From NCBI GenBank assembly GCA_025359635.1, contig JANYFV010000352.1, forward strand, positions 1 to 37,490: a stretch of 37,490 bases of DNA. The letters are read 5' to 3'. Position numbers and translations under genes: made by a program. Position 1 is the first letter of the stretch, and the number at the start of each line of letters is the position of its first letter. This document shows, one piece after another, positions 13,436 to 37,377 of the stretch. The notes below the pieces were generated by a model. The model was not told the DNA's origin and made no database searches. It saw nothing but the letters and a program-made list of their open reading frames with translations. Origin of the DNA: Undibacterium sp. (lineage in GTDB: Bacteria; Pseudomonadota; Gammaproteobacteria; Burkholderiales; Burkholderiaceae_D).

Positions 13436-13592
13436 TGAATAGATCAGAAAAACAGATCGGGAACGAAGCAAGGTAGCCCGAATTGAGCAAACTGTAGAAA
13501 AACTTAACGCTGAACTATCAATCGACAGTCCAGCACAATGGAAAATAGTCTCCCGCTTAATTCACGCGATATCTAGTTCGCCATCATGCTGA
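13436..13592 (+). pseudogene. Possible decayed plus-strand coding remnant overlapping the 3' end of the LuxC-like gene
   Basis: The frame after TAG at about 13439 reads IRKTDRERSKVARIEQTVEKLNAELSIDSPAQWKIVSRLIHAISSSPSC*. Protein-like composition, no start codon or RBS. The '(A/V)RxIHA' ending resembles the N-terminal region of the CobH/CbiC precorrin isomerase family, but this is recalled and not tested. Confidence 0.3.
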
Positions 13593-14874
13593 CTAATTGC
13601 GCCAAGTCGTAACTCCCGTCATGCGGTTCTACAGAAGAGGCTAATGCCATCTCACCAAATGAACATAATCTGGTAACGCCGAGAATTCTGGCCATACTAA
13701 GCAATTGGGCGCGTTCGCTCTCTGACGCACCATAGGCCATCGTTTGCATCCAATATTTTTCATCCTTCAGTCCTTGAAGGATAGTGGAAAAATCTGAAAA
13801 TTTTACAATATGTAAAAAGCGACAAAGAGGCGATGGAATCAAACCAGACTTCCAATTTGTCCACAAAGCCATCGACCAAGAATTTTCCACAGGACAAACG
13901 AGCCTGACTCCATCAGAAATAATACCTTCTGCCTTAATTAACTCTCTGGCACTTAAAATATCCACATAATCGTCAGTGGTTCTGACTGGTGGTGCATCAT
14001 CGTAGACTGCCTGAAACGTCAGTTTCAAGCAGTCCAAAAACATCTGTAATTGTTCTGCCGGAATTTTGTCTTCTATAAATAAGGCTTGTAAGCTATTGCA
14101 TGCCTTTTGATCCCACATACTGACATCCATAACAATGTTCTTGCAGAGCACTTCTAATTTAACGCCTTGTAATCCCGCTTTGGTCAATACACCTATGCCA
14201 TATTTAGGGCCGTGACTCAATACCTGAGCGGAATATCCCAAATCCGTTTTCCAGCTCATTACTGCATCAACACCACCCCAAACAATAATACGATCAACAT
14301 TCGCTTTAAACAGCGCCTCGATGTCCTTTTCGCCACCCTTCCACCAAAAAGCGGCAAGTCGCGAGACCAAGATTTTTTCCTCATCGGCAGAAAACAGACT
14401 ATCAATAAAAATCCCCGGTATACCTCCGTCCGGACTAGAAAATTTATAAAAATTTACATTGCCGCTTAATAGACCATCAACCAGCCCATCTAATCCAGCC
14501 ACCAAAGTGTTGGTCGCACCAATATGTAAAACGATACCGACTGGAGCGGCACTTCTATTACCAATGGCATTTCGCCATCTTTGCTCTAACGCTTCTTTTG
14601 AAAAGAATTTGGCGATTTCGTTAAAAAACAATTCGATAGAACTTGATACGATGCCCGCGTTGACAAGATGAGACTGAATCAGCTCATTGGCAGGGCTCTT
14701 GACATCCATCCAATTGGCACCAAGTCTGGCCAGAATTGCGATAATTTTTTCTAAAGGCGGTGGAGTAATCAAAGTGGCTCGTTTGCCGGTATCAATTAAG
14801 GTATTGAGATCGGTTGCATTAATGGGCGCCGCGCGCTCGATGATATGTCCAAATTGAAACGTCTTATTTAACAT
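13573..14874 (-). CDS. LuxC-like acyl-CoA reductase (aldehyde-forming)
   Basis: PVGIVLHIGATNTLVAGLDGLVDGLLSGNVNFYKFSSPDGGIP, KNIVMDVSMWDQKACNSLQALFIED, RLCSFGEMALASSVEPHDGSYDLAQLVSMM are typical of the LuxC family. Start taken as MLNK at 14874, overlapping the LuxE-like stop; the ORF track extends to 14889. Confidence 0.87.
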   Translation of the reverse strand: MLNKTFQFGHIIERAAPINATDLNTLIDTGKRATLITPPPLEKIIAILARLGANWMDVKSPANELIQSHLVNAGIVSSSIELFFNEIAKFFSKEALEQRWRNAIGNRSAAPVGIVLHIGATNTLVAGLDGLVDGLLSGNVNFYKFSSPDGGIPGIFIDSLFSADEEKILVSRLAAFWWKGGEKDIEALFKANVDRIIVWGGVDAVMSWKTDLGYSAQVLSHGPKYGIGVLTKAGLQGVKLEVLCKNIVMDVSMWDQKACNSLQALFIEDKIPAEQLQMFLDCLKLTFQAVYDDAPPVRTTDDYVDILSARELIKAEGIISDGVRLVCPVENSWSMALWTNWKSGLIPSPLCRFLHIVKFSDFSTILQGLKDEKYWMQTMAYGASESERAQLLSMARILGVTRLCSFGEMALASSVEPHDGSYDLAQLVSMMAN

Positions 14875-16063
14875 GACCGCTCCCGGCAATATATTGTTCT
14901 GCGTTCAATGCGCAGGTCATCGGTTTTTTTGACCCCCCGCGTCCGTCAATTCTCAGGAAATCGCTGGCTCGTCCACATTCACAATTTTTTTCCAGACAAC
15001 CAAGATCGGAAGTCAGCAAGGACCCCGAAGGGTAACTTTGCAGAACAGGAGAAAAAAGTTGAACCAAGCCGGTTTCACCATAAGGCAAAACCTTCATCGT
15101 CTTGACATCGCGAATCACGACATGTGCCAAAGCAGATACATGGAGTTTATTTTTCTCGCACGCGACATAGAGCACCGGGTGCTCAACTAAAGAATAAGAG
15201 TCGCGCACGGAGGACGCCTGAATATTACTGAACTCGCTAAGAAAGGCATACAGATTAAAATCCTCGCCGTAAGAACGAGCGAATTCCTTCCAGCCACCAC
15301 CGCTCAAGATAAAGCTATTTTCCGGACAAATTAACTTGCCATATTTCTCATGATAGGCCGTCACTATTTCACAAACATAATGAAGAAATCCCAGTATTCT
15401 GATCGGAATACCTGCCTGTACATATTCTCTTAGTTGCTCAACAGATTCATCTTTCAAAAATACCGTCTTGCCACTTTCAGTCAGATCTAGCGCATAAAAA
15501 GCACTTCGCCGCGGAGTCAGATGTGACACTACCTGATCTGTGCCTGCAGTACCGGCGCCATTCGATGCCTCTGGGCTGTATCCAGCAAAAAGATAATTTG
15601 CTTCCTGCGCACTTGCCAGTCCCAAATCACTGTAGACCTTAAAAATACCAGAGACAATACGCACCAGTGAAACTTCATCTATCGATATGTTCGCTCGTTG
15701 CCCCGTGGTGCCAGACGATGTCACTGTTAGCGCATGTTGTTCATCGGCCGAGCTACTAAAATTATACTTTTTCAGTACTGCCGATGTGATGTAAGGAATG
15801 TGGGAAATATCGTCGAAATGCTGTAAAGACTCAACATCGAATCCAGATAAAGTCATCAGATCTTTATAAAAAGCATAATTTTTTTGTTGTCCCAGTATTG
15901 TTTCACGCATTGCGATAAGAAATGCGTCTTTCCAGGCATCGTCTTTATTCGCACTATCACAGTGGTATAGTCGATCCACGGGATTCGAAATGTTCTGACA
16001 TTGAAGATGTACTTTTGCAAGTAACAACTCCGGTGAAGAAATAAGATTATTTAGCTCGTCCAA
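14864..16063 (-). CDS. LuxE-like acyl-protein synthetase (fatty acid / acyl activation)
   Basis: TVTSSGTTGQRANISID adenylate-forming P-loop; LSGGGWKEFARSYGEDFN as in LuxE-family proteins; directly upstream of and overlapping the LuxC-like gene. RBS AAGGAG lies inside the track ORF (16084), so TTG at 16063 is the better start. Confidence 0.85.
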   Translation of the reverse strand: MDELNNLISSPELLLAKVHLQCQNISNPVDRLYHCDSANKDDAWKDAFLIAMRETILGQQKNYAFYKDLMTLSGFDVESLQHFDDISHIPYITSAVLKKYNFSSSADEQHALTVTSSGTTGQRANISIDEVSLVRIVSGIFKVYSDLGLASAQEANYLFAGYSPEASNGAGTAGTDQVVSHLTPRRSAFYALDLTESGKTVFLKDESVEQLREYVQAGIPIRILGFLHYVCEIVTAYHEKYGKLICPENSFILSGGGWKEFARSYGEDFNLYAFLSEFSNIQASSVRDSYSLVEHPVLYVACEKNKLHVSALAHVVIRDVKTMKVLPYGETGLVQLFSPVLQSYPSGSLLTSDLGCLEKNCECGRASDFLRIDGRGGSKKPMTCALNAEQYIAGSGHVK

Positions 16064-16132: not shown

Positions 16133-16462
16133 TTAATGTGCTGCGATTTTTGTGTAGATATTGAGTATGATCACACCAGCGACGATCAGAGAAATACCTA
16201 TCACAGATGGAATATCTAAACTCTGTTTATAAAACACCCATCCCGCCAGCGAAACCAAGACCACACCAACACCAGACCAGATCGCATAAGTAACGCCTAC
16301 CGGTATGACCTTCAAGGTAAGGGATAAACAGTAAAAAGCAACCGAATAGCCTATCACCACCAACAAGGAAGGAACAAGGCGGGTAAAACCTTCAGAAGCC
16401 TTGAGTGCAGAAGTGGCAATCACTTCGCCAACGATTGCAATACCAAGAATTAGCCAATTCAA
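16133..16462 (-). CDS. Small multidrug resistance (SMR/EmrE-QacE family) transporter
   Basis: 109 aa, four predicted TM helices; [49 protein letters not shown]. Confidence 0.94.
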
Positions 16463-16609: not shown

Positions 16610-16950
16610 TTAAAGTGATAAATTGACGGAAATATTAAGCAGCTTGCAGTGGCCAAATTCAGGACGCAACTCAGGAAACATGTCTCTCTGGACTGCGAAG
16701 TCAATCGAGATATTTTTAGATGAATTGATGCCGATACCTAAGGTCTTCCCAGTAAATCCACGAAAATCGTGGGAAGCGCCGGCTCGCCCAAATAACCACG
16801 GAAAAAACTGATGTTCAATCCCGACAAACAATGTCTTGCTCGACATCCTTGATCCTGGATTGTGAAAGCTACCCTGCAGATAATCAAGTTGATGATTCTG
16901 AATCTTGGCGATCTCAATGAAAATCTGGGTTAAATAATTGGTGCAGATTA
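16610..16950 (-). pseudogene. C-terminal remnant of an outer-membrane beta-barrel-like protein
   Basis: The open minus frame extends upstream of the track ORF: ICTNYLTQIFIEIAKIQNHQLDYLQGSFHNPGSRMSSKTLFVGIEHQFFPWLFGRAGASHDFRGFTGKTLGIGINSSKNISIDFAVQRDMFPELRPEFGHCKLLNISVNLSL*. Alternating amphipathic strands with hydrophobic terminal strand. 5' end stops at the terminator of the upstream gene. Confidence 0.45.
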
Positions 16951-16980
16951 AAAAATGCCGGATGCATCAAGCATCCGGCA
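16951..16980 (-). terminator. Rho-independent terminator of the acylase gene
   Basis: Minus-strand reading TGCCGGATGCTTGATGCATCCGGCATTTTT: stem TGCCGGATGC/GCATCCGGCA then T-run, 30 nt after the stop at 17010. Confidence 0.88.
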
Positions 16981-17009
16981 TAGTTATGTTTTGAGTGAAA
17001 TTTTCTTAT

Positions 17010-19517
17010 CTACCACTCACTGATAGTCACGCTTTTATATGCCGCATCGTTGCGAATATCAATTTCAGAAAACGGTAACTTTAGCCAATTCTTACTGGCG
17101 TATTTATCCGTGTAATTGCTGTAGCGCGGCGATGCCGGATCGTCTGAAAGCGAATACGTGAGGAAGGTATATGCTTCTACCCCGCTGTTACGGAAAGAAA
17201 CAACTTGCATATAAGTGCTACCGTTAGGATTTCCATCCATGCTATATCCGCCCTGATCCAGGCGATTCTCCGAACACGAGATCGTGAAATAACCCGGTTC
17301 TTCACAGCCACCATACAGACCGATCTTGCGCATATTACGTGTCACAAACAGAGTTTCACCGCGAGTTGCGGTCATGGAAAAACCACTGCGCTGAGCTCTT
17401 AATACGGCTGCGCCAAAAGCTTGTTGTAGAGCTTGCCCTGCACTTGTTTTCAGGTCGCGTGGCGTGTGAATTGCATCATTTGCATCAAACGGTACACTGT
17501 ACAAATCCGCTTCTGGCAGAAGAGCTACGCGACGCCAGAATTCATCCCAGATATGTGCACCACGCGCACCAGGGTTGCCGGTATTGTCCCAAGCGCGCAA
17601 AGCGGAACAGGCCGCGCGCACATCAACAGCTAACGGAGGAAAGCTTTCACCAGTTTCTGTATCGGCATTAATGCTAATGGTGGCTGTCGCACAAACCATT
17701 GGTAGCGCCTGCGCCTTGAATAACTCGGCAGTTAAAGCGCGGCTATTGAGCACCATTTGCTTGACCGTATCGACGCTTGCCTTGTTGCCTGGGTAGCCAT
17801 CGTTACCATCTAAACGTCCTTGTGCCATGGTATGGCCGAGACGGGTACGCATTGATAACGAGTGAGTACCGGCATCACCCATGATGTCGGGATAACCAGT
17901 CAAAAGGGCCTTGGGATTGGTGCTCCAATAACTGTCGTTCATATTTGCCACGTAGTCTGCACGTAGTAGACTAGGCATACGTGAAGGACCGATTGCACCA
18001 GTTTGCCTGGAATCCGCGTCAGTTTTCCAATCGCAAATACTTTGCGCACCATCGAAGAAAGGCACTCGTGGCAAGACTGTGCCTATCATGTAGCCGATGG
18101 GCGTCGTGCAAAGCTCTTGTTGCTGTGGCGAGACGTTGGGCACCGCACCTATATCGGCATACCAAGCCTTGCTACTATAGCGCCCGATTGCCGTGGTATT
18201 CACCCAGGGAATCGAGCTCTCTTCTTTTTGGATACGGATAAATTCATCTAAGGATGTGGCCTTGTTCCAGCGTAACCAGTTGCGGAAACTTCGGTTATTA
18301 CCGGCATTGATATCCCTGATCGCAAATGCCGTATAAGGATTCCAGGTAAGGTCGGGATTAAGCAAGCCCAAATTAGCGATAGGGCCGTGTTCGGAGCGAT
18401 ATAAGATTCGCTGTACCTTGCCAAGCCTGCCATCAGCCTGTTTGACAGTGATGGAAATCGGCACCGCCGTCATCTTCACTTTTTTGCCATCACGCATGTA
18501 ACTTGTTGCGTCATCACTAGCCAAGCTCAACTCAAAAAAACCAAAGCGGCGCGCCTCAGAGACCGTATGGCTCCACGCGATATTCTCATTGTACCCAATC
18601 AAAATCATAGGTACGCCAAGAAAGGAGCCTCCGCTGACATTGACTTTGCCGGGAATAGTCAGTTGTGCCTGATAGAACCGGTCGGCACCGCGCCAGTACC
18701 AATGCGGATTGCCGAACAGAAGTGGGCTGCCAGTATCAGTCGAGACGCTGCCGTACGCGATCATATTGCTGCCTACGCCGTTCTTGCCGCCAACCTGCAG
18801 CTTTGGTGTCTTGATCTGGTTTTGCTGCATTTTACCGATGACAGCTTTGCCCTGCAAAGGGGCATTGAACGTTAGGCCTGGCGGCTGAGCAGTGGCGATC
18901 ATATTCACAAAATTACTATAACCACCCGCCAGATTGGCGGCCATCATCCTGCGATAAATATCGTCACTACGGATCGGCCGCACCCACTCAGCATATCGGC
19001 AGGCGCTGTGTGCGGTATTGCTGCCGCCCTTGATCTGGCGAACATAACGATTGTAACCAGCAGCGAAGCCCGAGACCAGATCACGCAGATCCTGTGGCTG
19101 CTCTGCAATCATCGCCGATATGCCTTGTGCTGTAATGACATGGCGATGAAAAAAATCAGAATCAATATTTGCTGCCGCCTCTAGCGTGGTACCCGCAACA
19201 GGCCCGGCATCGGCACCGAAATAACGTGAACGTTCACCTCGATAGGTCAAAAAGGCATCTGCCATGGTGCAGAGGTTATCTTCTGCCTGCGCATAACCAT
19301 AACCGTAACCGAGATTAGCCCAATCGTCCGCCTTGATGTGTGGCACACCCATGGTAGTGCGTCTAATTTCCGCACGATAATTGGTATACGGACCAAAGCT
19401 TTCTGTAATTACATTACCGTCAGTATTTTGAGCCTGGACAGAAAATGGCAAACTTAATGCTAGCAACGCAAATGTTCGGCATCTGATGATTGGAATTAGC
19501 ATCTTGAGTATCGTCAT
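17010..19517 (-). CDS. Secreted penicillin acylase family Ntn-hydrolase (acyl-homoserine-lactone acylase-like)
   Basis: 835 aa, N-terminal signal peptide (IIRCRTFALLALSLPFSVQA), alpha-subunit motifs GVPHIKADDWANLGYGYGYAQAEDNL, autocleavage GVG|SNMIAYGS, LLFGNPHWYWRGADRFYQAQLTIPG, YNENIAWSHTVS. Confidence 0.9.
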   Translation of the reverse strand: MTILKMLIPIIRCRTFALLALSLPFSVQAQNTDGNVITESFGPYTNYRAEIRRTTMGVPHIKADDWANLGYGYGYAQAEDNLCTMADAFLTYRGERSRYFGADAGPVAGTTLEAAANIDSDFFHRHVITAQGISAMIAEQPQDLRDLVSGFAAGYNRYVRQIKGGSNTAHSACRYAEWVRPIRSDDIYRRMMAANLAGGYSNFVNMIATAQPPGLTFNAPLQGKAVIGKMQQNQIKTPKLQVGGKNGVGSNMIAYGSVSTDTGSPLLFGNPHWYWRGADRFYQAQLTIPGKVNVSGGSFLGVPMILIGYNENIAWSHTVSEARRFGFFELSLASDDATSYMRDGKKVKMTAVPISITVKQADGRLGKVQRILYRSEHGPIANLGLLNPDLTWNPYTAFAIRDINAGNNRSFRNWLRWNKATSLDEFIRIQKEESSIPWVNTTAIGRYSSKAWYADIGAVPNVSPQQQELCTTPIGYMIGTVLPRVPFFDGAQSICDWKTDADSRQTGAIGPSRMPSLLRADYVANMNDSYWSTNPKALLTGYPDIMGDAGTHSLSMRTRLGHTMAQGRLDGNDGYPGNKASVDTVKQMVLNSRALTAELFKAQALPMVCATATISINADTETGESFPPLAVDVRAACSALRAWDNTGNPGARGAHIWDEFWRRVALLPEADLYSVPFDANDAIHTPRDLKTSAGQALQQAFGAAVLRAQRSGFSMTATRGETLFVTRNMRKIGLYGGCEEPGYFTISCSENRLDQGGYSMDGNPNGSTYMQVVSFRNSGVEAYTFLTYSLSDDPASPRYSNYTDKYASKNWLKLPFSEIDIRNDAAYKSVTISEW

Positions 19518-26297: not shown

Positions 26298-26996
26298 TTA
26301 ACCCGCCTTAATCAGCTTGCGCGGGCGTCCGCGCTTGATAGGCTCGACTCGCCTTGCGGTTAACTTCGTCATTTCAGCCTTAAAGACATCGGAACCTAGC
26401 ATCCAGCCCTTCAGCGTTGCATTCGTCAAGGCCTGTATCTGTGCGGCTGAGAAGCCAGCTAACATCATTTCTTTATACGCCGCTTCGCGTTGAAATGGCG
26501 TATTCCCCAATCCCCAATAAGCGGGATGATCAGTGACTAAGGGATTGGTCTTGAGGCCGATATGATGTTGGTAACTAGACCAGGGATAATCCACCGCGTC
26601 TGTGACCAAAGCTGAGCGAACCGGGTTCGATTCCATATATAAGCTACAGCGTAATAAATATTGATTTGCTTCCAGCACAGTAGCTTTGTAACGCCCTTGC
26701 CAAAGCGTGCCCTGGCGTTGATATTTGCCATTAAAATAAGGGACATAGTGTCGCCCTATCCATTGCATCATCTTTCCCAAGCCAGTTTCATCGCTCGGCG
26801 TTGCTAATAAATGCAGGTGATCTGGCATGAGCACGTAGGAGTGAATCGCCACCTTAAACTGACGGGACGCCTCGCCCATCCAGGCAAGAAACGAAGTGTA
26901 ATCCTCGTCATCAACAAAAATCTGCTTCCCATCAATGCCACTTTGAATAATGTGATGTAGCTGGTGAGGAATTACGAGACGGGGGAGTCGTGCCAT
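26298..26996 (-). mobile_element. REP-associated tyrosine transposase (RAYT)/Y1-type transposase
   Basis: MARLPRLVIPHQLHHIIQSGIDGKQIF..., HSYVLMPDHLHLLATP (HUH-like HLH), GRYKATVLEANQYLLRCSLYMESNPVRSALV. The internal ATG at 26996 matches the family N-terminus; the track ORF extends to 27062. Confidence 0.92.
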
Positions 26997-27062
26997 GGGA
27001 TGCAAGCTATCAGTAATGAGACTGCGGTATTGTAAAGCAGACAGGAAATTGATGCGTGCCAA

Positions 27063-27705: not shown

Positions 27706-29193
27706 TTAATTCATTGTAGGCTTGATGGATTGCAGAAAACGGGACAACATTGGCGAATCCGCGTAGGCCACATTGAAGCGAAACCAAACAGACTCAGGTT
27801 TTCTTAACATGAAGAAATCGCTAGGCGAAAGCAAAATGCCAGATTTCAGCGCGAGATCGGCGACCAGCTTGCCATTACACGTTTCACTCGGCTCGACTTG
27901 CCAGCCAGCACTGACAAACATACCGCCGCGCGGCCGGGCGACTGGCAGCATTCCTACATCTGCCAATTTTTCGATCGCCCGTTCGCGCCCCGCGTCGAGC
28001 TGAGTAATCAATTTTTCTACCATGCGGCGATACGGTCGTGCAGAGAGCGCGTGATACACCGCCCGCTCATTGATCTCCGAGGTGGTCAATCCCGCCAGCA
28101 TTTTGACGCGCGCGAGTTCGGGCAACAAGACATTTGAGGCGGAGATTGATCCTACCCGTAGCACTGGTGACAAGGTTTTTGAAAAACTGCCAACGCGGAT
28201 GACTCTGCGCAAGCCATCCATTGCCGCCAGAGAAGCTTCGCCACTCGCGGCCAATTCGCGATAAATGTCATCTTCCACCAGACAAAAATCAAATTGCTCG
28301 GCCAGGCCAAGCAGGCGATGCGCTTGCGCCAGACTCAGAGAAGTGCCGAGGGGATTTTGCAAAACCGTGTTGACGAACATCAGTTTAGGTTGTGTCGTGA
28401 CCAGTTGTTGTTGCATGAAATCCAGATCCAGACCGGCCTCGCCACGGGGAATACCAACCGGGCTGCAGCCGTGGTGCCGTATCAGCGACAAGAGATTACT
28501 GTATCCAGGGTCTTCGACAAACACGGTATCGCCAGGTTTGGTCAAGGTACGCAAAACCAGGTCAAAAGCATGGGTCGCGCCATGTGTCAGCAAAATCTGA
28601 TCCGCTTCAACCGCATACAATTTATCCGTTAAAGTCGCCGCCAGATGCTGGCGCAAACTAGGGAAACCTAGCGGATGACCATAACCACGCAGCCGGTTCG
28701 CCGGTATTTTCATTGCATGCCGTACCGCTTCCAGAATCGTCGCCTCGCCATACCACTCTGGCGGCAACCAGCCCGCACCAACTGGTAAGGCATCTGATAC
28801 ACCTGTATATAAATCGGGGGTAAGCGCATCGATCGCGGTAGGAGTCGCCTGAAAAACCAGCTTCTGCGACACCAGAGCGACTTCATTGCGTGCCACGGTG
28901 TACCCAGAACCGCGCCGTGAAGACAGCAAACCGCTGGTCACAAGATGGCCATATGCCTCCACAACTGTGAAGGTACTCACGCCATTACACTTGGCAAGTT
29001 GACGTACTGACGGCATTTTTGCGCCTATCCGCAACTCCCTGCGACTCACCATTAAACTGATCGCATCGACAATCTGCTCGACCAGACTAAATTGCTTGTT
29101 GCGCTCTAAATTTAGAATAGGCCAGGCAGATTCTGCTAAGCCAGGGCGTAGCTGTTCAGTTGCTTTAGCGATCTGCTTCATGCGATTACCCAC
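27706..29193 (-). CDS. MocR/PdxR-type GntR-family regulator with aminotransferase-like domain
   Basis: N-terminal wHTH (LVEQIVDAISLMVSRRELRIGAKMPSVRQLAKCNGVSTFTVVEAYGHLVTSGLLSSRRGSGYTV) fused to fold type I aminotransferase domain (VEDDIYRELAASGE, RVGSFSKTLSPVLRVGSI). Confidence 0.93.
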   Translation of the reverse strand: MGNRMKQIAKATEQLRPGLAESAWPILNLERNKQFSLVEQIVDAISLMVSRRELRIGAKMPSVRQLAKCNGVSTFTVVEAYGHLVTSGLLSSRRGSGYTVARNEVALVSQKLVFQATPTAIDALTPDLYTGVSDALPVGAGWLPPEWYGEATILEAVRHAMKIPANRLRGYGHPLGFPSLRQHLAATLTDKLYAVEADQILLTHGATHAFDLVLRTLTKPGDTVFVEDPGYSNLLSLIRHHGCSPVGIPRGEAGLDLDFMQQQLVTTQPKLMFVNTVLQNPLGTSLSLAQAHRLLGLAEQFDFCLVEDDIYRELAASGEASLAAMDGLRRVIRVGSFSKTLSPVLRVGSISASNVLLPELARVKMLAGLTTSEINERAVYHALSARPYRRMVEKLITQLDAGRERAIEKLADVGMLPVARPRGGMFVSAGWQVEPSETCNGKLVADLALKSGILLSPSDFFMLRKPESVWFRFNVAYADSPMLSRFLQSIKPTMN

Positions 29194-29345
29194 TTTCAGA
29201 GAATCTTTAAAACTGTTATGTTATCACCACCTGTACGGTTGTCGCGTTTTAGTCTTTGTGTATCTGTGCCATTGATCTGAGTCTATCTATGATGACTCCA
29301 TCAACTCAAAAAAATTAGCCTTGCATCACCATTAATGGAGAGACC

Positions 29346-30662
29346 ATGAACGAAAGCAAACCAGCATCCATGAACGCGTTTTGGATGCCATTTACCAATA
29401 ACCGCGATTTCAAGGAAAATCCGCGTTTGATGGTAGCGGCAGAAGGCATGTATTACCGCGATGTCGATGGTAATCAGGTTCTTGATGGCACAGCCGGTCT
29501 ATGGTGCGTACCTTGCGGCCACGCACAGCCAAAAATTGTTGGTGCCGTGCGCGAAATGATAGGTCAGCTCGATTTTGCCCCAACCTTCCAGATGGGTCAC
29601 CCCGCTGCCTTTGATCTGGCCGAAAAGCTCATCGCGTATACCAACAATAGATTTGCCCAAGTGTTTTACACCAACTCTGGTTCAGAAGCGGTCGATACCG
29701 CATTGAAGATGGCGCTGGCTTACCACAAGGCACGTGGCGAAGGATCACGCACTCGTTTGATCGGGCGTGAGCGTGGCTATCATGGAGTAGGCTTTGGCGG
29801 AATGTCGGTCGGTGGCATTGGTGGCAACCGCAAGAGTTTTGGTCCCTTGTTGGGTGGTGTTGATCATCTGCCACACACACATAATCTGGCGATGAATGCG
29901 TTTACCCGCGGCGAACCAGAACACGGCATGAACCTGGCCGATGAACTTGAGCGTATCGTCGCCCTGCACGATGCATCGACGATTGCTGCCGTCATCGTCG
30001 AGCCAGTCGCTGGTTCAACCGGCGTATTGATACCGCCAAAAGGATACTTGAAGCGCCTGCGCGAACTCTGCACCAAATACGGCATCTTGCTGATTTTTGA
30101 TGAAGTCATCACCGGCTTTGGCCGCCTGACTACGCCGTTTGCCAGTGATTATTTTGACGTTGAACCAGACATGATGACGACCGCAAAAGGATTGACCAAC
30201 GGCGTCATCCCTATGGGCGCGGTCTTTTCCAAACAGTTTATCTACGATACTTTCATGCAAGCCCCGGCCGGCATAGAACTGTTCCACGGCTACACCTATT
30301 CAGGACATCCAGTGGCCTGTGCAGCCGCACTTGCGACCCTGGAAGTATTTGAAGAACAGAAAATATTACAGCACGCCAAGAGCATACAAACCCATTGGGA
30401 AGATGCGGTTCATTCACTCAAGGGATTGCCGCACGTAATCGACCTGCGTAGCATAGGTGTGATTGCCGGCATAGAGTTGGAAAGCATTGCCGGCAAGCCC
30501 GGTGCACGCGCCTTCAACGCCTTCAAGCAAGCATTTGCCGATGGCATCTTGATACGTACCACCGGCGACATCATCGCGCTCTCGCCACCGCTGGTACTGG
30601 AGAAAAAACACATCGATGAGTTGTTCGGCAAACTCACTACCGTCTTAAAAAATTTAGCATAA
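29346..30662 (+). CDS. Class III omega-amino acid aminotransferase (beta-alanine--pyruvate transaminase-like)
   Basis: 438 aa; [94 protein letters not shown]. Confidence 0.92.
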
Positions 30663-30682
30663 AAATTACTCAAGAAAATCAT

Positions 30683-32185
30683 ATGAACGCACTGAACACC
30701 ATCACCCATTACGTCAATGGCGAACACATAGACACGCAAAGTGGCCGTTATGCCGAGGTCTACAATCCAGCTTTAGGTGAACCAATTGCACGCGTCGCAC
30801 TCGGCACCGCGGAAGACGTCAACACTGCCGTAGCAGCTGCCTCCGCCGCGTTTCCGGCATGGTCGGCAACACCACCGTTGACACGTGCGCGCGTACTGTT
30901 TAAATATCTGCAACTGTGCCAGCAACACACCGATGAATTCGCCGCCATGATCACGCGTGAACATGGCAAGACCTTCGCCGATGCGCAAGGTGAAGTCGCG
31001 CGCGGTATCGAGATGGTGGAATTTGCCGTCGGCATTCCGCAATTACTCAAAGGCGAATTCACCGATCAGATCGCACGTGGTATCGATGCCTGGTCTATGC
31101 GTCAGGCACTTGGCGTGGTCGCGGGCATTACTCCGTTTAACTTCCCGGTGATGGTGCCGATGTGGATGTTCCCGGTCGCTATCGCTTGTGGCAATTGTTT
31201 TATTTTAAAACCATCTGAACGCGATCCATCCGCTTCAATGCTGCATGCAAAATTATTGACTGAAGCTGGCTTGCCAAAAGGTGTGTTTAACGTGATTCAG
31301 GGCGACAAGCTTACGGTAGATGCCCTGCTTGACCATGCAGATGTACAAGCCATCAGCTTCGTCGGCTCTACTCCAATCGCAGAATACATCTATGCACGCG
31401 GCTGCGCCAAAGGCAAGCGGGTACAAGCCCTGGGCGGTGCCAAAAACCATATGGTCGTGATGCCAGACGCTGATATGGAAATGACGGTCGATGCCTTAAT
31501 CGGCGCTGCCTACGGTTCTGCCGGTGAACGTTGCATGGCGATCTCTGTGGTGGTCGCGGTCGGTGACGCCGGAGACAAAATCATCAAGGCTTTGGCCGAG
31601 CGCACCAGTGCCTTGAAGATACGCGACGGCATGGCGGCAGATGCCGAAATGGGCCCAGTGGTGTCGGCACAAGCCAAACAACGTATAGAAAAACTGATCA
31701 CTGAAGGCGAACAACAAGGCGCAACTTTAGTAGTAGATGGACGCAACTGCAAAGTAGCTGGACGCGAGAACGGCTTCTTTGTCGGCGGCACACTGTTTGA
31801 CCATGTCACAGCGGACATGAGCATCTATACAGAAGAAATATTTGGCCCAGTACTATGCGTCATGCGCGCACCGGATATCACTTCCGCAATCAACACCATC
31901 AACGCCAACGAATACGGCAATGGCGTTGCTATCTACACCCGCGACGGCGGCGTCGCACGCGAATTTGTGCGTCAGATACAGATCGGCATGGTCGGCGTTA
32001 ACGTACCGTTGCCGGTACCGATGGCCTTCAATAGTTTTGGCGGTTGGAAGCGCAGCATGTTTGGCGATCATCACGCGTATGGCCCGGAAGGTGTGCGCTT
32101 TTATACGCGCCATAAAGCAGTCATGCAACGCTGGCCTAACACGGCTAGTGCCGGTGTCGAGTTCGCCTTCCCACAGATGAAATAG
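30683..32185 (+). CDS. mmsA: CoA-acylating methylmalonate-semialdehyde dehydrogenase-like protein
   Basis: 500 aa; [64 protein letters not shown]-terminus [34 protein letters not shown]. Confidence 0.93.
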
Positions 32186-32198
32186 ACGCGTATTTTTC

Positions 32199-32549
32199 AT
32201 GAAAAAAATACTTAAATTTGACGCCAGCGATGCGCCTGCTGAAGAGTATTTTCTGGCTGCAGAAAAACTCATCAGCGGCAATCCGCAGCAAACCATCTGG
32301 CAGCATTACACCGACCCTAGCGCAAAATTTCTAACCGGTATCTGGCAAAGCGAAGTGGGTAAATGGCGCATCAATTACACTGAAGAAGAATATTGTCAGA
32401 TACTTCAAGGCTCAAGCATACTCACTGATGAACTTGGTAATGCAGTCACCGTTTCTAGTGGCGAAAATTTTGTCATACCACGGGGTTTTAACGGCACTTG
32501 GGAAGTGGTGCAGAAAACACGGAAAATTTATGTGATCTATGAGGCTTGA
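32199..32549 (+). CDS. Small cupin-domain protein
   Basis: 116 aa; GIWQSEVGKWRINYTEEEYCQILQGSSILTDELGNAVTVSSGENFVIPRGFNGTWEVVQKTRKIYVIYEA, typical of the DUF861-type cupin_3 group. Confidence 0.85.
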   Translation: MKKILKFDASDAPAEEYFLAAEKLISGNPQQTIWQHYTDPSAKFLTGIWQSEVGKWRINYTEEEYCQILQGSSILTDELGNAVTVSSGENFVIPRGFNGTWEVVQKTRKIYVIYEA

Positions 32550-32558
32550 GAATATTTG

Positions 32559-33692
32559 ATGAATCTCCTTCGGCATGCATGTTCACTTGTATTTTCCATG
32601 TCTTCCCTGATGGCACTCGCCTCTGAAATTGGTGTCAGCGATAAGAAAATTTTATTGGCACAATCTGCAGTATTTAGCGGTGACTCAGCAGAACTCGGGC
32701 TCCGCGCAAACCTTGGAGCGCGGGTATTTTTCGATGCTTTAAATGCCCGTGGCGGAATCGCAGGTCGCAAGATAGAATTGATCAAAGACGACGATAATTT
32801 CGAACCGTCAAACGCGGCTGAAAATACGACAGGTTTCATTGAAGGAGACAAAGTATTTGCGCTCTTCGGCTACATCGGCACTACTACCAGCAACGCAGCT
32901 TTGCCAATTCTAGTCAAAGCGAAAGTGCCGTTTTTTGCACCTTTTTCTGGGGCACAAACACTTCGTGAACCCAGCAATCGCTATGTATTCAATATTCGCG
33001 CCAGTCTGTTTGACGAGACTCACTATATGGTTGAGCAACTGGCGATTATGGGAATGAAACGTATCGCCGTATTTTACCAAAATGACGCTGATGGAAAATC
33101 TGGTTTAGACGCTGTAGTGCTGAGCGCAAAGAAAGCCGGGTTGGCTGTTGTTGAAAGCATCTCAGTCGAACGCAATGCCATGGGTGTGGCCGGTGCCGGT
33201 TCAAAATTATTGGCAAAAAATCCCGACGCAATCATCCAGCTTTGTACCTACTTACCTAGTGCAACATTAATTAAAGAAATGCGTAAGCTCGGCTATTTGG
33301 GGCAGTTCTATAATACCTCGATGGTCGGCAGCGGCGCACTTGCGGAAGACTTGGGCAAGGAAGGGGTTGGCGTCACCATTTCGCAAGTCGTTCCCCTGCC
33401 TTGGAAATCGCAATTTGCGATAGTCAATGAATACCAAAAAGCAATGCAAAAAGCAGGGCATAAGGATTTCGACTTCACTAGTCTTGAAGCCTATATCGCA
33501 GCCAAAGTATTTTCTGAAATAGCAGCCAAGGTCGGCAGTGATCTAACCCGAGAGCGATTTATCAAAGTCGCGGAATCAATGGGGCTTATCGACCTTGGCG
33601 GCTACACGGTCAACTTTAGCGCCAGCAACCATCAAGGTTCAAATTTTGTAGATATGGTAGTCATTGGAAAAAATGGAAGTTTTTTACATTAA
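32559..33692 (+). CDS. ABC transporter substrate-binding protein (periplasmic binding protein type 1, amino-acid-like)
   Basis: Signal peptide; ILLAQSAVFSGDSAELGLRANLGARVFFDALNARGGIAGRKIELIKDDDNFEPSNAAENTTGFI, VFALFGYIGTTTSNAALPIL. Confidence 0.9.
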   Translation: MNLLRHACSLVFSMSSLMALASEIGVSDKKILLAQSAVFSGDSAELGLRANLGARVFFDALNARGGIAGRKIELIKDDDNFEPSNAAENTTGFIEGDKVFALFGYIGTTTSNAALPILVKAKVPFFAPFSGAQTLREPSNRYVFNIRASLFDETHYMVEQLAIMGMKRIAVFYQNDADGKSGLDAVVLSAKKAGLAVVESISVERNAMGVAGAGSKLLAKNPDAIIQLCTYLPSATLIKEMRKLGYLGQFYNTSMVGSGALAEDLGKEGVGVTISQVVPLPWKSQFAIVNEYQKAMQKAGHKDFDFTSLEAYIAAKVFSEIAAKVGSDLTRERFIKVAESMGLIDLGGYTVNFSASNHQGSNFVDMVVIGKNGSFLH

Positions 33693-33699
33693 ACCTCGA

Positions 33700-34989
33700 T
33701 TAAAAATAATCACGCAAGCGATAGTAAGACATCCCTACAGCTTGAAACAAAGCACCCAAGGTTTCTCCACCAGGGAAAGCGGGATTCTTTAGCGCCGTAA
33801 ATAACTTAAGATGTGTCTCATCGCCATTGATTGCCTCGGCCAACACCCGCCCTGCCACGCAAGTGGGAACAATGCCATGACCAGAAAATCCTTGTGCCCA
33901 ATACACATTATCCAGCCGGCCAAAATCAGGCGTGCGCGGCATGGTAATGTCAATATGTCCGCCCCAGGTAAACGCGATCTTGGTCTTCGCTAACTGCGGA
34001 AAAACTTTCAACATATCTTGCCGCAGGCCTTCAGTCAGATTATTCGGTGTACGCCCGGTGTAAGAACATTTACCGCCGAACAGTAAGCGATGGTCTTTAG
34101 TCAAACGAAAATAATCGAGTACAAATTGATTGTCTGAAACAGCGTAACCGCTGGGCAAGAGTTGGCGCGCTGCCGTCTCACTTAGCGGTTCGGTGGCAAT
34201 CATGTAAGTTCCAACTGGCAGAATCTTCCCTTGTATGCGGCGATCAAGTTGATCGATATAGGCATTACAGGCAAGCACCAATTTATTGGCACGGATCTGG
34301 CCTTGCGCCGTCTGCACCGTAACGCCATCGATATCTGCCTGGTAGCCCAGCGCCTTGGTGTTGTCGAATATCTTGACGCCTAGTTGCTCTGCCGCTCGCG
34401 CCAAACCTAGCGCATACTTGAGCGGATGCAAATGACCACCTTGCGGATCGAGCAACGCGGCTTGATAGCGGTCTGAATCGATGTGCTGTGGCAGATCACT
34501 TTTTGGGATGAATTGCAGTTGATCATAGCCCCACTTGTGTGCCGCTTCGTGCTGCCAGTCCGTGAGTATCTTCACCCTGCGTTGCTGCACTGCTGTCCAG
34601 AGATGGCCCTCAGTTAAATCACAGGCGATCTGGTGCCGTGCAATGCGCCGGCGAATTTCGCTCGCGGCATCTTGCACCAGTTGCCACACCTGCCTGGCAC
34701 CGTCTTGCCCGAGTGCTGCCTCGAAGGGTGGCATGTCGCAAGAAAAACCGGGAATAATTTGCCCACCATTGCGGCCAGACGCGCCCCAGCCAACCCGGCT
34801 AGCTTCGATGATCATAACCGATTTACCCGCTTCGGCAAGATTTAAGGCGGTATATAAACCGGTATATCCCGCACCGATGATAACAACATCGACCTGCAGA
34901 TTTTCTTCTAAAGAGGCGCGCGATATCTGCTCATCACGGCAACTGGCGGCGTAATAACTATCGATATAGTCTGAGCTGGATTCGAACAT
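33700..34989 (-). CDS. puuB: FAD-dependent gamma-glutamylputrescine oxidase-like protein
   Basis: VDVVIIGAGYTGLYTALNLAEAGKSVMIIEASRVGWGASGRNGGQIIPGFSCD (DAO family), VYWAQGFSGHGIVPTCVAGRVLAEAINGD; next to agmatinase and puuA-like genes. Confidence 0.88.
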   Translation of the reverse strand: MFESSSDYIDSYYAASCRDEQISRASLEENLQVDVVIIGAGYTGLYTALNLAEAGKSVMIIEASRVGWGASGRNGGQIIPGFSCDMPPFEAALGQDGARQVWQLVQDAASEIRRRIARHQIACDLTEGHLWTAVQQRRVKILTDWQHEAAHKWGYDQLQFIPKSDLPQHIDSDRYQAALLDPQGGHLHPLKYALGLARAAEQLGVKIFDNTKALGYQADIDGVTVQTAQGQIRANKLVLACNAYIDQLDRRIQGKILPVGTYMIATEPLSETAARQLLPSGYAVSDNQFVLDYFRLTKDHRLLFGGKCSYTGRTPNNLTEGLRQDMLKVFPQLAKTKIAFTWGGHIDITMPRTPDFGRLDNVYWAQGFSGHGIVPTCVAGRVLAEAINGDETHLKLFTALKNPAFPGGETLGALFQAVGMSYYRLRDYF

Positions 34990-34998
34990 GGCTCGAAT

Positions 34999-35937
34999 CT
35001 ATGCCAAACGTTTTTTGATCTGTCCACATAAATACGTCCAGACAAAAATCGACGCAGCGTTGCTGGTGAGCTCTGCATGATCATACGGCGGCGAAACTTC
35101 GACACAATCCATCCCACACCAGTTGAGATCGACCAGTTCTTCGATGATGGACAGGACTTGCGCAGAAGTCATCCCGCCCGGCTCTGGAGTGCCGGTACCG
35201 GGTGCAAATGCCGGATCAAGGCAATCGATATCGAGCGTTAAATACACTGGCGGATTACCTGCGTGTGCCATGCGCGCGCGGATTTCTTCCAACACTGGCG
35301 CGAGTTGCAATGGGCTTTCAAGTCCGCGTAATTCACGTGCTGTAAACACCCGACCTCCAACTGTATTCACATACTCGCGTGCTTCGCGCTCACCCGATGA
35401 GCGTATCCCGATTTGCATAGACGCTTCTGGAATTAATAAGCCTTCTTGCATCGCTTCATAGACCCAGGTGCCATGACCTGATGGCTCACTGAAATGATTG
35501 GTCCAGGTATCGCAATGCGCATCAAAATGCACCATCGCCACTGGGCCACCATTGACTTTATTCAACGCGCGTAATAACGGTAGTGTCACTGAATGATCAC
35601 CACCCAGCCAAACCATATGATGCGCCGCGAACAGTTCCATGGCTTGCGGCATCAATGCAGCGCGCATCGCCTCCAAACCTGTATTCGGCATCGGTAAATC
35701 ACCGGCGTCACACAGATGCCCAAATGGGCTGGTATCAAAATGAGGATGCGTTGCATCGCATAACATTTGCGATGCCAGACGGATTGCCTGCGGCCCAAAG
35801 CGCGCACCTGGTCGATTCGTGACAGCGCCATCAAATGTTAAACCCGCCAACGCGAATGGCATGTCGGGCGCATCCTCACGCCGTGGTCCGTTTAAGTATG
35901 TACCGCTGGAACGATAAGCGAATTCATGATTGGCCAT
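34999..35937 (-). CDS. speB: Agmatinase / ureohydrolase family protein
   Basis: Mn-binding motifs WLGGDHSVTLPLLRAL, VHFDAHCDTW, TLDIDCLDPAFAPGTGTPEPGGM. The ATG at 35937 has better RBS spacing than the track start at 35946. Substrate (agmatine versus another guanidino compound) not determinable from sequence. Confidence 0.87.
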   Translation of the reverse strand: MANHEFAYRSSGTYLNGPRREDAPDMPFALAGLTFDGAVTNRPGARFGPQAIRLASQMLCDATHPHFDTSPFGHLCDAGDLPMPNTGLEAMRAALMPQAMELFAAHHMVWLGGDHSVTLPLLRALNKVNGGPVAMVHFDAHCDTWTNHFSEPSGHGTWVYEAMQEGLLIPEASMQIGIRSSGEREAREYVNTVGGRVFTARELRGLESPLQLAPVLEEIRARMAHAGNPPVYLTLDIDCLDPAFAPGTGTPEPGGMTSAQVLSIIEELVDLNWCGMDCVEVSPPYDHAELTSNAASIFVWTYLCGQIKKRLA

Positions 35938-36042
35938 GATGTGCATCCTGAGAGTTGAAATATTGCCGGGCTTTCAGTGTTTCGGCTTAACTGTCTTACC
36001 TATTTTTTATCGCTTATTATCTGAGGTCAACTCAGTTAATGA

Positions 36043-37377
36043 TTATGTTTGCGGTGCCAGAAAACGCCTCTCCCAGGCGCCGATTTCATACAAGTAACTC
36101 TTATACTCAAGCTGTTTTACAGCAGTAAATGCAGTGATAAACCGCTCACCCAGTAATTTTTTTGCAGACACGCTATTACTCATTTGTTCGTGTGCCGCCA
36201 TGAAAGTCGGCGCCAGATCGTGACTACAATCGTAAGCGCTTCCTGCTACTGCGTCACTTGGCTGTAACTTCTCTTCTATACCAGCGAGGCCAGCAGCAAG
36301 CGAGGCGGCAATGGCCAGATACGGATTTGCATCGGCACCTGCAATACGGTTTTCTACCCTTCGCGCGACAGCTCCACTTAGCGGAATGCGTAAACCGGCA
36401 GTGCGGTTATCCATACCCCATTGCAAATTGATCGGTGCCTGGCTGCCAGGAATAAAGCGACGGAACGAGTTCACTGACGGGGCAAAAATTAACATCAAAT
36501 CCGGCAAATAAGCTTGCAAGCCACCGATGAAATGGTGAAAGCGCGCGCTATTGCTGCCGTCTTCATCGCAAAAAATATTCTTACCACTGGAGTCCACCAC
36601 ACTTTGGTGCAAGTGCATGGAGCTGCCTGGCTGACCGGCAATCGGTTTGGCCATGAAGACGGCATTCATACCATGTTTGATGGCGATTTCTTTGGCTGCA
36701 TACTTAAATAAAAACGCCTGATCGGCCAACGCCAATGGATCTCCGTGCACCAGATTAATTTCATATTGAGAAAGCCCGACTTCATGTATCCAGGTATCGC
36801 CACGAATGCCCAAGGCATCGATAGCTGAATTAAATTCATCCCAAAATGGCGCAAGCTCGTTCAGCATATTCAGGCTAAACGCCGACTGGCCATTTTCCGC
36901 CCTGCCATTTTTTGCTGTTGGTGCGACAAAAGGCAACTCTGGATTCGTATTTGGTGCAATAAGATAAAACTCGATCTCGGGCGCAACGACTGGCGTCAAA
37001 CCAAGCGCCGAATAACGTGCCAATACATTTTTCAAAATTGATCGCGGAGCAAACTGGCAATATGATCCATCAAGCTCAACACAATCGTGAATAGCAAACG
37101 CGCGTGGCACGCTACTCCAAGGTATCATTTTAAGAGTGCTGTAATCTGGCACCAAACGAATATCCGGATCAGCATCGGGGAAAATGGGGTGATACGAATA
37201 ATCACCAGTAATCGCCTGCATAGGAATCGCCTGCGCGATGCGCAACTCATCACCTTTAGCAAAACTACGCGCGGGCATCAGCTTACCGCGTGGGTAGCCC
37301 GAGACATCCGGAAAAATGCATTCGACGTCGCGCACAGGATGTTGCTGGAAAAAATTTTGAAGTTCGGTTTGAATCAT
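36043..37377 (-). CDS. puuA: Glutamine synthetase family, gamma-glutamylputrescine synthetase-like
   Basis: 444 aa; VAPEIEFYLIAP, GDTWIHEVGLSQYEINLVHGDPLALADQAFLFKYAAKEIAIKHGMNAVFMAKPIAGQPGSSMHLHQSV, NRTAGLRIPLSGAVARRVENRIAGADANPYLAIAASLAAGLAGI. Confidence 0.87.
   Translation of the reverse strand: MIQTELQNFFQQHPVRDVECIFPDVSGYPRGKLMPARSFAKGDELRIAQAIPMQAITGDYSYHPIFPDADPDIRLVPDYSTLKMIPWSSVPRAFAIHDCVELDGSYCQFAPRSILKNVLARYSALGLTPVVAPEIEFYLIAPNTNPELPFVAPTAKNGRAENGQSAFSLNMLNELAPFWDEFNSAIDALGIRGDTWIHEVGLSQYEINLVHGDPLALADQAFLFKYAAKEIAIKHGMNAVFMAKPIAGQPGSSMHLHQSVVDSSGKNIFCDEDGSNSARFHHFIGGLQAYLPDLMLIFAPSVNSFRRFIPGSQAPINLQWGMDNRTAGLRIPLSGAVARRVENRIAGADANPYLAIAASLAAGLAGIEEKLQPSDAVAGSAYDCSHDLAPTFMAAHEQMSNSVSAKKLLGERFITAFTAVKQLEYKSYLYEIGAWERRFLAPQT

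Follow-up and report, generated by a model that had tools for sequence, protein, structure and literature searches.

A luciferase-free LuxE–LuxC gene pair in Undibacterium: an accessory cassette and putative carboxylic acid reductase

The luxE–luxC locus and its neighbourhood

The stretch of DNA analysed here (hereafter the window) comprises 37,490 nucleotides of contig JANYFV010000352.1 from Undibacterium sp., a betaproteobacterium that is not luminous. On its minus strand it carries two overlapping genes of the LuxE and LuxC families, together with an SMR gene and terminator-like hairpins on either side:

13507–13536, minus strand: terminator-like hairpin (consensus scan), 37 bp past the luxC stop; 13 pairs, then a T-rich tail
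13573–14874, minus strand: LuxC-family acyl-protein thioester reductase, 433 aa (PF05893, E = 2.1e-51)
14864–14874, minus strand: overlap, with 11 bp shared by luxE (3' end) and luxC (5' end) (from the sequence)
14864–16063, minus strand: LuxE-family acyl-protein synthetase, 399 aa (PF04443, E = 1.5e-29)
16133–16462, minus strand: efflux protein of the SMR family, Qac/EmrE-like; its gene lies 69 bp upstream of luxE (PF00893, E = 2.7e-33)
16955–16981, minus strand: strong terminator-like hairpin (consensus scan), after the upstream acylase gene

The luxE gene starts with a TTG at 16063, with an AAGGAG ribosome-binding site 5' of it, and stops at 14864; its homologue in the congeneric genome G294 starts at the corresponding residue. 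The luxC ATG, at 14874, falls within the final luxE codons and is closely preceded by a GGGAG inside luxE, the luxC stop being at 13573. The overlap described in the initial annotation is thus confirmed and, together with the internal GGGAG, is read as translational coupling. In the one other intact copy, that of G294 (L017), the luxE–luxC order is the same and the overlap amounts to 7 bp.

The hairpin at 13507–13536 is the probable end of the transcript, and that at 16955–16981 separates the acylase gene from SMR–luxE–luxC. Since hairpins flank these genes and the consensus scan found none between SMR and luxE, the three could form one transcript, and the SMR gene may be co-transcribed with the pair in the window, as initially suggested. 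The further proposal that the transporter exports the product of the pair, or confers tolerance to it, found no support: no SMR gene was found in the 20-kb region with the G294 copy or in the 12-kb region with the copy of a third carrier, G1047, and a functional SMR–LuxE–LuxC unit is therefore not supported.

Several other features of the window deserve mention. Positions 17010–19517 (minus strand) encode a penicillin-amidase-family acylase, PvdQ-like (529.5 bits; cut-off 950), which lies in a variable slot and is missing there in G119, the closest relative compared. This acylase was considered as a supplier of fatty acids and rejected, given the intervening terminator and the lack of any acylase match near the other copies (G294, G1047). 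A 118-codon open frame at 16610–16966 (minus strand), with no Pfam match, looks by eye like the C-terminus of an outer-membrane protein and is a possible gene remnant in the variable slot. Downstream of gltB, a Y1 (IS200-like) transposase gene (26298–27062, minus strand) occurs at the same place in G119. Additionally, the region 27706–37377 encodes a MocR-like regulator, a class-III aminotransferase, an aldehyde dehydrogenase, an EutQ-like cupin, a substrate-binding protein, a DAO oxidase, an arginase-family enzyme and a glutamine-synthetase-like protein, a set suggestive of polyamine catabolism, whose aldehyde dehydrogenase probably has no connection with the LuxC product. The pair itself had no PADLOC match to anti-phage defence.

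Enzyme families, catalytic residues and the absence of luciferase

The assignments of both proteins, made initially from the sequence alone, were borne out together with their coordinates. LuxC belongs to PF05893, by a profile match of 175.5 bits (cut-off 21) that covers positions 3–400 of 401 and by the conserved Cys259; it is a single-domain protein, without an AMP-binding fusion. LuxE belongs to PF04443, by a match of 103.5 bits (cut-off 24.9), the AMP-binding loop SSGTTGQ (residues 116–122, conserved) and Cys384. The best solved relative of both is the LuxC–LuxE complex PDB 7xc6 (chain A against LuxC, E = 1.1e-10; chain E against LuxE, E = 6.8e-14). Single-sequence AlphaFold models reached pLDDT values of 37 and 34, too low to be of use.

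In the alignments, the LuxC nucleophile Cys259, within DQKAC, is invariant in 17/17 homologues, as are Gln256 and Asn122. The acyl-accepting Cys384 of LuxE, in a C-terminal TCA motif, is kept in all 14 homologues aligned, across which Lys98, Cys302, His308, Cys363 and a GGWK motif are also invariant. The published acylation sites, LuxE Cys364 and LuxC Cys286 within YDQQACFSTQ (PMC8301110), correspond to the TCA and DQKAC motifs, respectively, of the window proteins. Judged by these residues, catalysis by both proteins looks intact.

The loop around the LuxC nucleophile does deviate, reading DQKACNSLQ where QQACSSPQ is usual. This departure from CSSPQ, in combination with a chemistry that runs via acyl-enzymes, would fit a pair that forms an acyl-enzyme and passes the acyl group to another acceptor, LuxC completing no reduction. 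However, LuxC conservation extends over the whole ALDH-like fold, including the invariant residues, and the family profile is matched end to end, which makes such an acyltransferase very unlikely.

Compared with the intact G294 copies, the two window genes differ at 56–60% of third and 18% of second codon positions, with dN of about 0.24, dS near saturation and an LWL85 dN/dS of about 0.12–0.14. This codon-position pattern and the low dN/dS indicate that both genes are under strong purifying selection as proteins.

A scan of the main window genes revealed no luxA, luxB, luxD or flavin reductase, in agreement with the initial annotation; luxD and flavin reductase were looked for in the window only. 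Across the window's genome (G000, 99.83% complete), the luciferase family PF00296 had no match, neither a second LuxE nor a second full-length LuxC was found, and the weak PF05893 matches elsewhere include the window's own aldehyde dehydrogenase gene. The pair is thus not part of a luxCDABE operon, and the lack of PF00296 in G000 implies that it does not serve light. The earlier suggestion of an aldehyde-making pair serving another purpose gains from this genome-wide result and from the conserved catalytic cysteines.

In this regard, the bioluminescence fatty acid reductase LuxC–LuxE of Photobacterium and Vibrio (PDB 7xc6) has in common with the window pair the two families, the residues of the acyl-Cys relay and the two-enzyme logic. 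The relationship is nevertheless remote, and the window pair differs in gene order, in the overlap of its genes and in having no adjoining luxD, luxA, luxB or luxG. Against the NCBIfam equivalogs for bioluminescence LuxC and LuxE (NF052251 and NF052244), it scores 57.7 bits (cut-off 750) and 58.5 bits (cut-off 550). Such scores, together with identities of 24–32% to every other LuxC or LuxE found outside the genus copies, do not imply a long-chain fatty acid as the substrate. The same scores count against the pair being the relic of a lost luciferase operon, an idea for which the gene content (LuxC, LuxE) speaks and nothing else. The order also differs, luxE preceding and overlapping luxC here, whereas luxCDABE has luxC first and luxE after luxAB; moreover, G000 is devoid of luciferase, and the sole PF00296 protein of G294 is an MsnO8-family (PRK10508-type) monooxygenase located 0.83 Mb from the pair. 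We regard this origin as strongly disfavoured, with next to no probability.

An accessory cassette within the genus

LuxC of the window type occurs in three of 44 congeneric genomes (G000, G294 and G1047), at two different chromosomal sites. In G119, the same bktB–gltD slot is occupied not by luxC–luxE–SMR–acylase but by genes that, from their translations and not from a family search, were named pirin- and OsmC-like, within surroundings (mla genes, bktB, gltDB) that share 86–88% DNA identity with the window. In G294, the pair is flanked by mnmE on one side and by type II secretion genes on the other; it is absent downstream of mnmE in five other congeners with sequence there, the G000 contig being too short to tell. 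The pair proteins of G294 are 66–68% identical to those of the window, compared with 91% for mnmE and 98% for bktB. The two sites, the absence from these congeners and the lower conservation fit separate acquisitions. The order and overlap kept at the unrelated G294 site indicate that the pair itself is the unit, and no other genes travel with it in the regions around the G294 and G1047 copies.

From within luxE onwards, G1047 and G294 share 99.6% DNA identity over 9.7 kb, as against 82% upstream. In G1047, luxC is intact, and luxE lacks about 0.7 kb and is out of frame, in fragments with frameshifts (L054:2339-4045); we read these sequences as a recent exchange between species with ongoing loss of luxE. 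Together, these findings mark the pair as an accessory cassette, probably one that is exchanged horizontally. Its rarity, its low GC content (0.43–0.44 against about 0.48–0.54 in its neighbours) and the broken LuxE of G1047 could also suggest an insert that is passively exchanged or decaying and does nothing at present in the window strain. Both window genes are, however, open and of full length, and their dN/dS relative to the other intact copy is low, so that we consider this highly improbable.

Relatives elsewhere and the proposed function

In both the LuxE and the LuxC trees, the window and G294 sequences form their own clade with 100/100 support; with identities of 24–32% to all others found, they are a separate, deep branch of the two families. 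The LuxE tree groups the pair more closely with the acyl-protein synthases than with the ACP-linked ones (98/95), and the LuxC tree leaves the placement unresolved. The relatives come from samples of genomes: sampling at order and phylum level yielded no additional genome at E<=1e-30, and at class level a single relative, 26% identical. Scans of genome contigs with LuxC and with a two-sequence alignment, which depend on exact peptide patterns, returned no relatives, which is weak evidence of absence; a scan of viral contigs was empty, and phage records gave one remote match.

LuxE and LuxC without luciferase are already known from O-antigen and flagellin-glycan loci and from natural-product-like clusters, so that the oddity implied by the initial annotation was overstated. 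Genes for ACP, ligase, LuxE and LuxC have been described in flagellin-glycan islands of Aeromonas and enterobacteria (PMC7874193, PMC4875605), and Vibrio cholerae RfbN has a LuxE domain, for O-antigen tetronate (stated in PMC4772473). The flagellin-glycan island and the luciferase-free modules L028 and L029 likewise represent LuxE–LuxC in non-luminous bacteria. They differ in that these modules carry ACP and AMP-ligase genes, the islands also having 3-oxoacyl-ACP reductase and glycosyltransferases, whereas no ACP, SDR or AMP-ligase gene lies beside either intact copy (window, G294); the LuxE tree also splits L028 and L029 from the window pair (98/95). Further luciferase-free pairs are SDR-linked (L038, L043, L044).

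The closest LuxE relatives, at 30–32% identity, belong to GNAT–MFS–LuxE–LuxC:AMP-ligase clusters (L027, L034) with a PaaK-like ligase, from family relatives and a Streptomyces plasmid, in which LuxE lies directly upstream of LuxC, as in the window. There, however, LuxC forms a fusion with an AMP-binding domain and the two have GNAT, MFS and ligase genes as neighbours, whereas the window LuxC is unfused and the pair stands alone. A LuxE, a LuxC:AMP-ligase fusion and a PaaK-like ligase of that type are also present on the conjugative IncF plasmid CP053580 of Salmonella enterica (L035, 8548–13830), with HlyD and peptidase-ABC transporter genes nearby. On the Streptomyces europaeiscabiei plasmid NZ_CP109155 (L045, 1956–10656), LuxE–LuxC is accompanied by YcaO, a DUF692 iron enzyme, an MBL-fold protein and small hypothetical proteins, a cluster whose product is possibly a peptide with a reduced carboxylate. 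The peptide-precursor (RiPP) idea that L045 suggests was rejected for the window pair, which no biosynthetic partner adjoins. Similar in layout is the Chloroflexota plasmid pair (CP069395, L036), with two genes in the same order, overlapping ends and no obvious adjoining biosynthetic genes; at 29% (LuxE) and 24% (LuxC) identity, it groups in the acyl-protein synthase clade, apart from the window pair.

These comparisons bear on the substrate. The pair might reduce a non-fatty carboxylate, such as a small hydroxy-acid, a sugar acid or a peptide C-terminus, for a decorated glycan or secondary metabolite, with its partner genes elsewhere in the genome. Most luciferase-free relatives do sit in clusters of this kind (flagellin-glycan, RfbN, L027/L034, L045), beside whose acyl-protein synthases the LuxE tree places the pair. 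On the other hand, neither intact copy adjoins a gene for biosynthesis, a carrier protein or a precursor peptide, and the Chloroflexota plasmid pair likewise lacks obvious adjoining ones. We hold this to be a serious alternative of clearly lower probability than our preferred reading, namely that the pair is a self-contained Lux-type carboxylic acid reductase in an exchangeable accessory cassette, the aldehyde being used by host enzymes (probability of about 0.6).

In LuxE/LuxC chemistry, an acid and ATP yield an acyl-AMP, the acyl group passes through a LuxE thioester to a LuxC thioester, and NADPH reduces the latter to the aldehyde. By analogy, the window LuxE would use ATP to convert a free carboxylic acid into acyl-AMP and load the acyl group onto its own Cys384 as a thioester; the acid is most likely a fatty acid of medium or long chain. 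The acyl group would then move to Cys259 of LuxC, where NADPH would reduce the thioester to a free aldehyde. Since neither a luciferase nor a dedicated downstream gene is present, this aldehyde would probably pass to host enzymes, either housekeeping or scattered ones (alcohol or aldehyde dehydrogenases), or be released as such. That the pair stands alone at two sites argues that it draws on acids common in the host and leaves the aldehyde to enzymes of the host. The likeliest substrates are fatty acids, a pathway-specific acid being a further possibility. The points that weigh against a reductase are the low sequence identities, the low equivalog scores, the DQKACNSLQ loop and the occurrence in G1047 of LuxC with a broken LuxE.

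As regards the fate of the aldehyde, the alkane-type product raised initially, via an aldehyde-deformylating oxygenase, was discarded as unsupported, none of the three carriers (G000, G294, G1047) having a PF11266 match. It is also conceivable, though unlikely, that the minimal mobile cassette alone makes a secreted aldehyde or alcohol, as a volatile or lipid signal or as a compound toxic to competing bacteria, and has spread from strain to strain as a selectable trait.

Taken together, the pair gives no pointer to a hidden bioluminescence in this Undibacterium; instead, it extends the luciferase-free LuxE/LuxC enzymes by a deep branch that had not been grouped before, in which the two-gene core alone acts as an exchangeable unit. 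As a putative compact two-enzyme acid reductase, it is also a candidate biocatalyst.
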